DNA of 6,438 nucleotides from Candidatus Rokuibacteriota bacterium (GTDB lineage: Bacteria > Methylomirabilota > Methylomirabilia > Rokubacteriales > JACPHL01): the NCBI GenBank assembly GCA_016188625.1, contig JACPHL010000208.1:1-6438 (forward strand), read 5' to 3'. The notes under the pieces are model-generated. The model had not been told where the DNA came from and ran no database searches. It saw nothing but the letters and a program-made list of their open reading frames with translations. A program made the position numbers and the translations under genes. Numbering within the stretch: the first letter of the stretch is position 1; every line of letters begins with the position of its first letter. This document shows positions 2,197 to 6,438 of this stretch, piece by piece.

Positions 2197-2448
2197 ATGC
2201 GTGCTCGAACGATGCTGTATATCGATCCCGAAGAGTTAAAAGCCTTGCGGGCCGAAGCCCGCGCCCAAGGGGTCTCACTGGCCGAGCTGCTCCGCCGGCT
2301 GGTGAGGGCGTACCTGGAGGCCCAGCGTCGGCCTCCGAGCCCGCCGTCCCCGAGCGCCTACCTGAAGCTCGTGGGGCTGGGGGCCAGCGGGCGGTCGGAC
2401 ATCGCCGCCCGCCACGATGCCTATCTCGGGGACGCCGTCCGCCGGTGA
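2197..2448 (+). CDS. Ribbon-helix-helix antitoxin (VapB-like)
   Basis: An 83-residue antitoxin predicted to repress its own operon and neutralise the PIN toxin that follows. Residues 3-9 (ARTMLYI) form the DNA-contacting beta strand, 11-25 (PEELKALRAEARAQG) helix A and 27-41 (SLAELLRRLVRAYLE) helix B of a ribbon-helix-helix fold. A Pro-rich linker (46-53) leads to the C-terminal toxin-binding tail, whose GRSDIAARHDAYL motif is typical of antitoxins paired with PIN toxins. There is no Shine-Dalgarno sequence, and ATG 2197 lies six bases past the -10 box, implying leaderless translation. An in-frame ATG at 2212 (residue 6) is the alternative, but it would remove half of the DNA-binding strand and also lacks a ribosome site. 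The stop overlaps the toxin start by four bases. Confidence 0.88.
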   Translation: MRARTMLYIDPEELKALRAEARAQGVSLAELLRRLVRAYLEAQRRPPSPPSPSAYLKLVGLGASGRSDIAARHDAYLGDAVRR

Positions 2449-2870
2449 GCGTGCTCGTCGATACCGGCGCCTGGTACGCCCTGGCCGATACCTCCGACCG
2501 CCACCATGAGGCGGCGCGGCGGTTTTACACCGAGCAGGCCGGCCGGACGCCGTTCGTCACCACCGACCTCATTGCCGCGGAGACCTGGGCGCTCCTGAGC
2601 GCCCATCTCGGGCGGGCCGCCGCCCTCACCTTCTGGGCGACGTTGCGGGAGGCGCGGATCCCCATCCTCGCCCTGGAGCCGGCGGACCTCGAGGCGGCCT
2701 GGCACATCGCCCAGGCCTTCCCCGACCAGGCCTTCAGCTTCACTGACTGCACGACCTTCGCGCTCATGGAGCGGCAGGGGCTGACCGAGGCGTTCGCCTT
2801 CGACACCCACTTCCTCGTCTACCGGTTCGGCCCCAGCCGGCAGCGTGCCTTCCGCCGCCTGCCCGACTGA
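2445..2870 (+). CDS. PIN-domain ribonuclease toxin (VapC-like)
   Basis: A 141-residue PIN-domain endoribonuclease. VapC-type toxins cleave RNA, commonly tRNA or rRNA, with a metal-dependent acidic site. The expected residues are all present: D6 (VLVDTGAWYAL), E46 (LIAAETWAL), D101 (FSFTDCTTFALM) and D120 (AFAFDTHF), so the enzyme should be active. The length is normal for the family. It starts with GTG at 2445, inside the antitoxin stop (GTGA overlap), and has no clear ribosome site of its own, which points to translational coupling that keeps toxin below antitoxin. An in-frame GTG at 2451 is a second possible start. The C-terminus is basic (RQRAFRRLPD). The target RNA cannot be inferred. Confidence 0.93.
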   Translation: MSVLVDTGAWYALADTSDRHHEAARRFYTEQAGRTPFVTTDLIAAETWALLSAHLGRAAALTFWATLREARIPILALEPADLEAAWHIAQAFPDQAFSFTDCTTFALMERQGLTEAFAFDTHFLVYRFGPSRQRAFRRLPD

Positions 2871-3112: not shown

Positions 3113-3637
3113 TCAGGGCTGACCGGCGACCCAGTCGCGGAGGGCGTCGGCGGTGGAGGGGAAGGCCAGCTCCTCCCAGGGGATCTCCGCCGGCGCCACG
3201 AAGGCGGCCTCGAGGACCTCGGACCCGCAGACCGGCTCGCCGGCGATGACGGTGGCGAGGTAGACCACGATCACGACCGAGACGCCGGGGTAGGAGTAGA
3301 CGCCGTGGAGGCGGTCGAGCCGGACCTCGAGCTGCACCTCCTCGCGGGTCTCCCGGATCGCGGCCTCCCCGACCGCCTCGCCCCAGTCCACGAACCCGCC
3401 CGGGAACGTCCACTTCCCCCGCGCCGGGGCATGGGCCCGCCGGATGAGCAGGACCCGGCCGTCGCGGCACGGGAGCGTGCCCGCCACGAGCTTCGGGTTC
3501 AGGTAGAAGACGAACCCGCAGCCCTCGCAGACGGCCTCGCGCCGGCCGTCGGGGGGCACCGGCTGGAGCCCGAGCGTGCCGCCGCAGAGCGGGCAGAAGC
3601 GGCGGGTGTCGGGGCGAAGCTCGCGGTGGGGGTGCAG
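3113..3637 (-). CDS. Nudix hydrolase with N-terminal zinc ribbon, probable CTG start
   Basis: A 174-residue hydrolase of nucleoside-diphosphate-linked compounds, in the zinc-ribbon Nudix group that includes ADP-ribose and NADH pyrophosphatase relatives. C15/C18 (FCPLCGG) and C37/C40 (CEGCG) form the zinc ribbon. The Nudix box spans residues 81-103: G81 x5 E87 x7 R95 E96 x2 E99 E100, with all metal-binding acids present. The usual Gly near its end is Gln102. The NudC motif SQPWPFP is absent, so the substrate is open. Start choice: CTG 3637 has GGGAGG (3649-3644) at six bases and a candidate promoter just upstream, and it gives the usual short lead MHPHRELRP. In-frame GTG 3709 and TTG 3697 lack a ribosome site and lie at or upstream of that promoter, so I prefer CTG. 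A GTG start would give 198 residues. Confidence 0.88.
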   Translation of the reverse strand: MHPHRELRPDTRRFCPLCGGTLGLQPVPPDGRREAVCEGCGFVFYLNPKLVAGTLPCRDGRVLLIRRAHAPARGKWTFPGGFVDWGEAVGEAAIRETREEVQLEVRLDRLHGVYSYPGVSVVIVVYLATVIAGEPVCGSEVLEAAFVAPAEIPWEELAFPSTADALRDWVAGQP

Positions 3638-3667
3638 CGCTGACCTCCCGGGTCGCTCTCGCCCTCC

Positions 3668-3799: not shown

Positions 3800-4897
3800 G
3801 TGCTGAAGCCCTTGACCGACGAGCAGCGCCAGATCGTGGCGACCATCCGGGCCTTCGTCGAGAAGGACGTCCTCCCCGTGGTCACCCGGCTCGAGCACGA
3901 GGACCGCTACCCCCACGACCTCGTCGAGCAGATGAAGGGCCTCGGGCTCTTCGGCGCCGTCATCCCCGAGGCCTACGGCGGCCTCGGCCTCGATTACGGC
4001 ACCTACGCCCTCATCATCGAGGAGCTGGCCCGTGGCTGGATGTCCCTGGCCGGGATCATCAACAGCCACCTCATCATGGCCCACTGCGTGGCGAGCTTCG
4101 GGACCGAGGAGCAGCGGCGCCGGCTCCTCCCACCCATGGCCCGCGGCGACCTCCGCGGCGGGCTCGCCCTCACCGAGCCCCACGCCGGCTCGGACCTCCA
4201 GGCGATCCGGACCACCGCGGTGCGGCACGGCGAGGAGTACCTTCTCACCGGGACCAAGATGTTCGTCACCAACGGCCGCTACGGCCGGGCCTTCGCCCTC
4301 CTGGCCAGGACCGACCCCGCGGCCGAGCCGCCCTACCGGGGGCTGAGCCTCTTCATCGTCGAGAAGGGGCACCCCGGCTTCCAGGTCGGCCGCGACATCG
4401 GCAAGCTCGGCTACAAGGGGGTCGAGACCGTGGAGCTCGTCCTCGAGGCGGTCCCGGTCCCGGCGGCCAACCTGGTGGGCGGGGTCGAGGGGCGGGGGTT
4501 CCAGCAGGTGATGGCCGGGCTCGAGGTGGGGCGGCTCAACATCGCCGCCCGGGCGGTGGGGGTGGCGCGGGCGGCCTTCGAGGAGGCGATCCGCTACGCC
4601 CAGCTCCGCCACGCCTTCGGCCGGCCGATCGCCGAGCACCAGGCGATCCAGCTCAAGCTCGCCGACATGGCGACCAGGGTGGAGGCGGCGCGCCTGCTCA
4701 CCCACCAGGCTGCCGAGGCCAAGGACCGCGGGGCGCGCGCGGACCTCGAGGCCGGGATGGCCAAGCTCTTCGCCTCCGAGGCGGCCCAGGAGGTGGCCCT
4801 GGAGGCGATGCGGATCCACGGCGGCTACGGCTATACTACCGGGACACCCCGCTCATGCTCATCGGCGAGGGGACCAACGAGATCCAGCGCCTGCTGA
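3800..4897 (+). CDS. Acyl-CoA dehydrogenase, first tandem copy, C-terminally frameshifted
   Basis: An FAD-dependent enzyme type that makes the alpha-beta double bond in acyl-CoA thioesters and passes electrons to ETF. Residues 1-347 are normal: an N-terminal helical domain (LGLFGAVIPEAYGGLGLDY, RGWMS), signature ALTEPHAGSD (123-132), the FAD/substrate strand GTKMFVTNG, and the C-terminal helical domain up to RIHGGYGYTT. From residue 348 the frame is wrong, and the protein ends in 18 unrelated residues (GTPRSCSSARGPTRSSAC). The loop TEFPVER, the catalytic glutamate (in GEGTNEIQ) and the last helix are lost from this ORF. They are found in the next frame from 4834 on. Comparison with the second copy shows that exactly 25 bases are missing after 4833. 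As written, the product should be inactive. The domain is about 70% identical to copy 2 (hand count, no gaps). Substrate unknown. Confidence 0.88.
   Translation: MLKPLTDEQRQIVATIRAFVEKDVLPVVTRLEHEDRYPHDLVEQMKGLGLFGAVIPEAYGGLGLDYGTYALIIEELARGWMSLAGIINSHLIMAHCVASFGTEEQRRRLLPPMARGDLRGGLALTEPHAGSDLQAIRTTAVRHGEEYLLTGTKMFVTNGRYGRAFALLARTDPAAEPPYRGLSLFIVEKGHPGFQVGRDIGKLGYKGVETVELVLEAVPVPAANLVGGVEGRGFQQVMAGLEVGRLNIAARAVGVARAAFEEAIRYAQLRHAFGRPIAEHQAIQLKLADMATRVEAARLLTHQAAEAKDRGARADLEAGMAKLFASEAAQEVALEAMRIHGGYGYTTGTPRSCSSARGPTRSSAC
4290..4342 (+). repeat. 53-base identical block shared by the two dehydrogenase copies
   Basis: Positions 4290-4342 equal 5438-5490 base for base, including third codon positions (encoding FALLARTDPAAEPPYRG). 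Two further 48-base identities are 4628-4675 with 5776-5823, and 4735-4782 with 5883-5930. These blocks are much more similar than the regions between them. Confidence 0.85.
4833..4841 (+). other. Junction of a 25-base deletion in dehydrogenase copy 1
   Basis: Identical blocks in the two copies lie 1148 bases apart up to position 4833 (matching 5981) and 1173 bases apart from 4834 onward (matching 6007). The bases corresponding to 5982-6006 are absent. The sequence at the junction, TACTACCG (4834-4841), could have been present on both sides before the event, since TAT-ACT-ACC-G and TAC-TAC-CG both contain it. That would give a replication-slippage route. Confidence 0.85.
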
Positions 4898-6105
4898 TCG
4901 CCCGCCGGCTCCTTCAGCGCTACGGCGAGCGCGCCGGCGCCTTCCGCAGCCTGGAGGAGCTCCCCGCGGAGCAGCGGCGACTGGTCCAGGCCGTCCGCAC
5001 CTTCGTGGAGAAGGACGTCATCCCCGTCGCGGCGCGCTACGAGCAGGCCGACGAGTACCCCCACGAGCTGGTCGAGAAGCTCAAGGAGCTGGGGCTCTTC
5101 GGCGCGACCATCCCCGAGGCCTGCGGGGGCCTCGGCCTCGACTACACCACCTACGCCATGGTGGTGGAGGAGATCTGCCGGGGGTGGATGTCGGTCTCGG
5201 GGGTCCTCAACACCCACCTCATCATGGCCTACATCGTGCTCCACTTCGGGACCGAGGAGCAGCGCCGGCGCTTCCTGCCGGCCTTCGCCCGCGGCGACAA
5301 GCGCGGCGGCCTGGCCCTGACCGAGGCCGGGGCCGGCTCGGACGTCCAGGCCCTCAGGACGGCGGCCCGGCGCGAGGGTGACCACTACGTGATCAACGGG
5401 ACGAAGATGTTCATCACCAACGGCCGCCACGGGAACACCTTCGCCCTCCTGGCCAGGACCGACCCCGCGGCCGAGCCGCCCTACCGGGGGATCTCGTGCT
5501 TCATCATCGAGAAGGGCGCCCCGGGCTTCACGGTGAGCCGCGACCTCGACAAGCTCGGCTACCGGGGGCTCGACACCTGCGAGCTGATCTTCGAGGAGTT
5601 CCGGGTCCCGGCGGCCAACCTGGTGGGCGGCCGGGAGGGCCAGGGGTTCAAGCAGGTCATGGCCGGGCTCGAGACCGGGCGCGTCAACATCGCCGCCCGC
5701 GGGGTCGGGATCGCCCAGGCGGCCTTCGAGGCGGCCCTCCGCTACGCCCGGGAGCGGACCGCCTTCGGGCGACCCATCGCCGAGCACCAGGCGATCCAGC
5801 TCAAGCTCGCCGACATGGCGACCCAGCTCGAGGCCGCCCGCCTCCTCACCTACTGGGCGGCGGCCAAGAAGGACTCGGGCGAGCGCGCGGACCTCGAGGC
5901 CGGGATGGCCAAGCTCTTCGCCTCCGAGGCCTGCTACCAGATCAGCCTCGAGGCGATGCGGATCCACGGCGGCTACGGCTACACGACCGAGTTCCCCGTG
6001 GAGCGTTACTACCGGGACGCCCCGCTCCTGATCATCGGCGAGGGGACCAACGAGATCCAGCGCCTGGTGATCGCCCGGGGCCTCCTCCAACGCTACGCCG
6101 TGTGA
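4855..6105 (+). CDS. Acyl-CoA dehydrogenase, second tandem copy (intact domain)
   Basis: A 416-residue flavoprotein dehydrogenase with every family landmark: LGLFGATIPEACGGLGLDY, signature ALTEAGAGSD (about residues 154-163), GTKMFITNG, GRPIAEHQAIQLKLADMAT, RIHGGYGYTTEFPVERYYRD, and catalytic Glu396 in GEGTNEIQ. The base is in the position used by MCAD/SCAD-type enzymes, so activity is expected. The first 31 residues (MLIGEGTNEIQRL...) are not native to this domain: they are the C-terminal tail of copy 1, including its catalytic glutamate (Glu5). True domain 2 begins at residue 32, where there is no ATG, GTG or TTG. ATG 4855 is therefore the only canonical start, and it has no clear ribosome site. 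Expression may depend on coupling to the overlapping ORF upstream (4855-4897). Acyl chain specificity cannot be told. Confidence 0.93.
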   Translation: MLIGEGTNEIQRLLIARRLLQRYGERAGAFRSLEELPAEQRRLVQAVRTFVEKDVIPVAARYEQADEYPHELVEKLKELGLFGATIPEACGGLGLDYTTYAMVVEEICRGWMSVSGVLNTHLIMAYIVLHFGTEEQRRRFLPAFARGDKRGGLALTEAGAGSDVQALRTAARREGDHYVINGTKMFITNGRHGNTFALLARTDPAAEPPYRGISCFIIEKGAPGFTVSRDLDKLGYRGLDTCELIFEEFRVPAANLVGGREGQGFKQVMAGLETGRVNIAARGVGIAQAAFEAALRYARERTAFGRPIAEHQAIQLKLADMATQLEAARLLTYWAAAKKDSGERADLEAGMAKLFASEACYQISLEAMRIHGGYGYTTEFPVERYYRDAPLLIIGEGTNEIQRLVIARGLLQRYAV

Positions 6106-6278
6106 GCCGAGTTTTGCAGGACCCCTCGGTCAGGCTGTATCATAAGGTGTACGAGGAGACGCCCGTAAGTCGAAAATACATGCTCGTGGCGGTGAAGATC
6201 CTCACCGGCGATGCGTTCGTGATCACGGCGTTCTTCACCGACCGAGAAAAGCAGGGGAACAGGATATGGGGAAGATAA
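6102..6278 (+). CDS. Small ORF, probably the 5'-truncated end of a toxin-like gene
   Basis: Fifty-eight residues if started at GTG 6102, which overlaps the dehydrogenase stop (GTGTGA). The body LYHKVYEETPVSRKYMLVAVKILTGDAFVITAFFTD reads like a real folded C-terminus, with beta strands followed by DAFVITAFFTD and a final IW. It resembles the ends of small conserved-hypothetical proteins of about 90-120 residues that sit next to DUF2283 genes and are suspected nuclease toxins. That resemblance is from memory and is not certain. The usual N-terminal half is missing, and no good ribosome site precedes the GTG, so a truncated remnant is more likely than a complete gene. Base composition here is clearly less GC-rich than in the dehydrogenases. 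It overlaps the next gene by 13 bases. Confidence 0.5.
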   Translation: MSRVLQDPSVRLYHKVYEETPVSRKYMLVAVKILTGDAFVITAFFTDREKQGNRIWGR

Positions 6279-6438
6279 AGGTTTGGTATGACGAGGCGGG
6301 CGATTACCTCGAGGTTGCCTTTGCCGACGCCGAGGGCTATTTCCGAGAGGTGGCCGAGGATGTGTTCGAGCGCGTAGACGAAAGCGGCCGAATCCTCGGG
6401 TTCGCCGTGTTCAACTTCAAGAAGAAGTCATTGACCCC
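6266..6438 (+). CDS. DUF2283 family protein, 3'-partial
   Basis: The first 57 residues of a small protein that runs off the window. The pattern MGKIKVWYDEAGDYLEVAFAD...VFERVDESGRILGFAVFN matches DUF2283: a strand with (Y/W)D-x-(E/A)-x-D-x-L-x-(V/I), then an acidic strand, then D-x-x-GRI-x-G-(F/I)-x-(V/I). Family members are about 60-90 residues and often sit beside toxin-like genes, for which an antitoxin or partner role has been suspected but is not shown by this sequence. The start is sound: AGGGGA (6253-6258) lies seven bases before ATG 6266. The 13-base overlap with the preceding ORF indicates co-transcription. Confidence 0.85.
   Translation, partial: MGKIKVWYDEAGDYLEVAFADAEGYFREVAEDVFERVDESGRILGFAVFNFKKKSLT

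Follow-up and report, generated by a model that had tools for sequence, protein, structure and literature searches.

The window, by which we mean the whole 6,438-nt stretch of Candidatus Rokuibacteriota DNA analysed here, is contig 20 of a 2.6-Mb draft genome (344 contigs, 84% completeness) and carries two acyl-CoA dehydrogenase (ACAD) units arranged head to tail, between which the frame of the second unit contains zero stops (Table 1). Both units hold the domain set of the ACAD superfamily (Pfam Acyl-CoA_dh_N, _M and _1), with _1 truncated in unit 1, and both encode the GEGTNEIQR motif, the unit-1 copy being out of frame with its own start. As assembled, unit 1 ends after 365 codons because 25 nt are absent near 4835, and the same absence explains why the repeat period of the units jumps from 1148 nt (3816 vs. 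4964, 75% identical), which holds up to about 4834, to 1173 nt, or 391 codons, thereafter (4834 vs. 6007, 87% identical). An earlier note, made from the sequence alone, had proposed this 25-base loss, and the proposal is borne out by the period shift, by unit 2 and by the N half of the homologous gene in G025, an independent genome of the same order. Its further reading that no stop would separate the units once these bases are restored agrees with what we found, as the unit-2 frame is open across the junction, and so does its remark that unit 2 lacks a start codon of its own: the codon at 4948 is AGC, and the sole ATG upstream of the unit-2 core, at 4855, lies within the tail of unit 1. Further genes noted in the window are also listed in Table 1.

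Table 1. Coordinates of the ACAD units and of other features noted in the window.
Feature	Position	Strand	Remark
RHH antitoxin-like gene of a VapBC-like pair	2197..2448	+	Overlaps the PIN-domain gene
PIN-domain gene of the same pair	2445..2870	+	
NUDIX hydrolase with N-terminal zinc ribbon	3116..3652	-	Divergent from the ACAD gene
Unit 1 (N half), in-frame part, GTG start, 347 codons	3800..4840	+	72% identical to G025 N half
Point of 25-nt loss (approximate), breaking the unit-1 frame (stop ends 4897)	4834..4838	+	Seen against unit 2 and G025 N half
Unit-1 tail in the unit-2 frame: MLIGEGTNEIQR motif and linker LLQRYGERAGAFRSLEELPAEQRR; includes ATG 4855	4838..4942	+	Linker homologous in all fused relatives
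Unit 2 (C half), catalytic GEGTNEIQR intact, stop TGA	4943..6105	+	82% identical to G025 C half
DUF2283 protein	6266..6436	+	Preceded by a short ORF without Pfam match

The fused gene in related genomes

Our searches covered 59 genomes of the order and then 95 of the phylum. Of the 59 other genomes of the order (Rokuibacteriota), 36 have a homologous fused gene with a single open frame across both units, and no relative was found in which a stop and a start separate the units, the pattern expected by the earlier note if the fusion had arisen only in this assembly. The gene of G025 is intact, with an ATG start, no internal stop and GEGTNEIQR in both halves; its product has two ACAD domains in one chain, which is the FadE34-type trait, each with the full domain set, and at 776 residues it has exactly the length predicted in the earlier note, which had also suggested looking in the lineage for double-ACAD proteins of 770-780 residues. 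Judged from these sequences, the fusion is real and old, and not an assembly accident. The 35 genomes sampled from other orders of the class showed no fused open frame, and no fused gene turned up in the 10 outgroup genomes that carry the nearest single-unit relatives, where single genes were present at good identity and matches spanning both halves were either of 35% identity or less, with stops, or short. Likewise, nothing at E<=1e-200 came from 198 genomes of the phylum to which the close single-unit relative L040 belongs. In other draft genomes of the order (G022:C150 and G030:C2) the fused gene is interrupted by a frame change or a stop.

The interrupted copy in the window

The window copy is frame-broken as assembled, and therefore it is G025, and not the window, that provides the intact enzyme gene. 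It is reasonably likely that the 25-nt loss is an error of assembly or strain mixture, limited to the window copy, and that the organism carries an intact 776-residue gene: the draft is fragmented and incomplete, interrupted forms occur in other drafts too (e.g. G022), and omega between the window and G025 is below 1 in both halves (0.36 in the N half and 0.22 in the C half, values that are rough because third positions are 98% GC), both window halves showing coding constraint. The loss is, however, a single clean deletion, and with a chance that we would put somewhat below even it is real, the fused gene of the window being in decay, or else divided in two, with a truncated N half and an active C half that has its own start and from ATG 4855 could yield a protein of 416 aa overlapping the end of ORF 1 by 43 nt. 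In support of this second reading, the frame is in fact broken in the assembly, a complete ACAD that is predicted to be active remains in the unit-2 frame, and the window and G025 diverge more in the N half than in the C half (72.5% vs. 81.9% identity), as the omega values also indicate; but no Shine-Dalgarno-like sequence was seen before 4855, constraint is still visible in the N half, with 344 contigs in the draft, a single indel may stem from misassembly or from a minority strain, and the operon neighbours of intact relatives do not lie beside the window copy. Because it is limited to the window copy, a real loss would not contradict the explanation that we propose below for the family.

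Complementary loss of half-sites and single origin of the fusion

In each half of the fused proteins we scored seven columns belonging to the half's own site (S155, S161, T187, E392, T394, E396 and Q398) and four belonging to the site of the partner (R297, F300, G301 and G369). T394, Q398, F300 and G301, neighbouring residues in ACAD structures, were added to the scoring. The assignment of the scored columns to own or adjacent monomer follows the structure of human SCAD, in which FAD contacts from the same monomer include S155, S161, T187 and E396, with Glu392 as the catalytic residue, and those from the adjacent monomer are R297, Q365 and G369 (PMC13027082). Expressed as N-own/N-partner/C-own/C-partner, the window (scored as pieces) and G025 both reach 7/4/7/4, with the catalytic Glu in (Y/G)EGT and the FAD-contact residues present in both G025 halves and in the window pieces, and among the scored genomes only these two early branches have 7+4 in each half. 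Of 78 single-unit ACADs, 67 likewise score 7/4. In the other scored relatives one half is catalytically dead, and all 30 rows of this dead type (29 genomes, L103 seeming a repeat of one) score 7/0-1/0-2/4. Among 78 columns, unselected for function, whose conservation in single ACADs is 90% or more, N halves alone retain 26, C halves alone 8 and both halves 28, with 16 intermediate and none lost in both halves, an outcome whose probability by chance is 0.03. At Q365 most of the family has Arg, which both halves retain.

For the trees, unit 1 of the window was entered as two pieces, each read in its own frame and separated by a gap, with no base added. The N halves, window included, formed one group and the C halves another in a tree of 145 rows (SH-aLRT 96 and 98), and in a more careful tree of 59 rows the two clades were each supported at 100/100; the window and G025 sit basal in both groups. 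Although the stem branch of the C halves is long, their clade is fully supported. With the N halves making up one clade and the C halves another, a single duplication and fusion therefore made all of these genes. Independent fusions were dropped as a candidate, the linker (xLLxRYGERxGALxSLExEPxERRQ) being recognisably common to all fused proteins. It is also very improbable that the tandems of the window and G025 come from a later, second duplication of the active N half, or from gene conversion of the C half, and are not ancestral: the two halves of each protein are indeed 70% identical, and unit 2 resembles other N halves more than it does the dead C halves, but shared constraint accounts for the resemblance of active halves, and dead C halves change quickly (stem 0.67 in the 145-row tree), the linker is shared, and we dropped this scenario on the tree evidence, as the C halves of the window and G025 group with the dead C halves, and N with N, with strong support in both trees.

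We thus consider the fusion, its single origin, the complementary loss and the retention of both residue sets in two lineages to be established at the level of sequence. The covalent double-active dehydrogenase envisaged in the earlier note is represented at the sequence level by G025, both halves of which have the Glu and all scored FAD residues, but the window copy, with its broken frame, falls short of it. That such a protein is unlike the arrangement with one dead half holds for the window and G025, which have the Glu in both halves; their closest relatives, however, do have the one-dead-half form, which according to the trees evolved from the double-active form.

Proposed architecture and evolution of the enzyme

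Our results make it highly probable that the window holds a copy of an ACAD gene whose product has its halves covalently fused into an internal dimer, and that this represents the ancestral state of a one-site pseudo-heterodimer. The ancestor of this Rokuibacteriota order would have acquired a tandem copy of an ACAD gene, and a linker of about 20 residues would have come to join the two units. Where both halves are of the active type (G025 and, apart from the frame break, the window), they most likely pair as two ACAD subunits do, each completing the FAD site of the other, which would give two FADs and two catalytic Glu per chain. In the other sampled fused lineages the halves then lost complementary residues, the N half keeping the flavin and substrate chemistry and losing the residues that hold the partner's FAD, as an alpha-like subunit, and the C half keeping just the partner-FAD residues, as a beta-like FAD cap, so that each chain would end up with one composite site, the condition known from the ChsE alpha-beta dehydrogenases. 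For such complementary loss, an N half has to meet a C half across the interface of the ACAD dimer, and the simplest case is that both belong to a single chain. We infer pairing within the chain from the complementary residue loss and from the fold predicted for the dead-type fused protein of Candidatus Rokuibacteriota isolate AR17 (pLDDT 81, pTM 0.83), even though two chains pairing with each other would give the same pattern of residues; the predicted model has two ACAD folds whose overall arrangement is confident. In structure searches with this protein the N half matched single ACADs only, and no solved fused ACAD was among the matches listed. Two FADs and two active sites are expected per G025 chain because both sites are complete, and two working sites per chain would be the condition of the double-active form, whose intact version is represented, by its sequence, in one genome, G025. 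The enzyme would oxidise a short or branched acyl-CoA and hand the electrons on to ETF.

Comparison with known ACAD systems

Actinobacterial cholesterol-side-chain dehydrogenases include alpha2beta2 complexes encoded by adjacent genes, while FadE34 (ChsE3) of cholesterol-degrading actinobacteria has two ACAD domains fused in one chain and a single active site. Among the papers covered by our literature search, none described fused or tandem ACADs in Rokubacteria or the anatomy of FadE34. The dead-type relatives appear to divide labour as do the alpha2beta2 enzymes ChsE1-ChsE2 and ChsE4-ChsE5 (FadE28-29 and FadE26-27), in which flavin and Glu belong to the alpha subunit, whereas the ADP-ribose part of FAD is held by the beta subunit (PMC11153573). 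ChsE alpha and beta, however, are products of two genes, whereas in the Rokuibacteriota family a single open frame spans both units in 36 relatives, and the window and G025 differ further in having both residue sets in both halves. FadE34 is likewise one fused two-domain chain, a likeness drawn from its description; on the same description it differs from the Rokuibacteriota family, whose halves are mutual closest relatives and whose window and G025 members have two Glu. Homotetrameric single-unit ACADs such as SCAD, butyryl-CoA dehydrogenase and M. smegmatis FadE3, which is the closest solved chain to unit 2 (4iv6), are matched by each G025 half in domain set and residue score, but their units are separate while those of G025 and the window are covalently joined.

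We regard it as probable that the double-active fused ACAD is a surviving intermediate, and that in Rokuibacteriota a covalent homodimer became, by reciprocal half-site loss, a pseudo-heterodimer that is obligate and has one site, independently of actinobacterial ChsE and FadE34 (the latter by its description), with both stages found within one order. Arguments about how homo-oligomers give rise to obligate hetero-oligomers usually start from end states. In this order a fused double-active form and about 30 putative descendants with complementary half-site loss coexist, and with both stages side by side, the question of which losses are tolerated when the partner is in the same chain is therefore directly testable. 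One FAD per chain would be predicted for most Rokuibacteriota fused ACADs and two for the G025 type. The gene, in fact, looks like a surviving early stage in the evolution of a two-part enzyme.

Gene neighbourhood and annotation of the fused proteins

In relatives, the genes that follow the fused one encode a MaoC hydratase, a second ACAD, ClpS and, in some cases, a class III CoA-transferase, and a phosphodiesterase-like gene is often found divergent upstream, a neighbourhood that suggests acyl-CoA breakdown in general. None of these operon neighbours lies beside the fused gene in the window, the genome of which has weaker homologues of the relatives' MaoC (46%) and second ACAD (38%) elsewhere. 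At L159:4799-7184 (G003, family f4 of the order) a single-unit ACAD lies beside a class III CoA-transferase, with a MaoC-like gene nearby, and groups with actinobacterial single ACADs, not with the fused clade.

On the practical side, NCBIfam profile scores sum across both halves and can exceed cut-offs meant for single units, and therefore fused ACADs can be mis-named. Unit 2 of the window alone stays below the cut-offs in question, while the whole-protein scores at L010:1495-3825 (minus strand) are 753 for acryloyl-CoA reductase, against a cut-off of 640, and 572 for glutaryl-CoA dehydrogenase, against 470.
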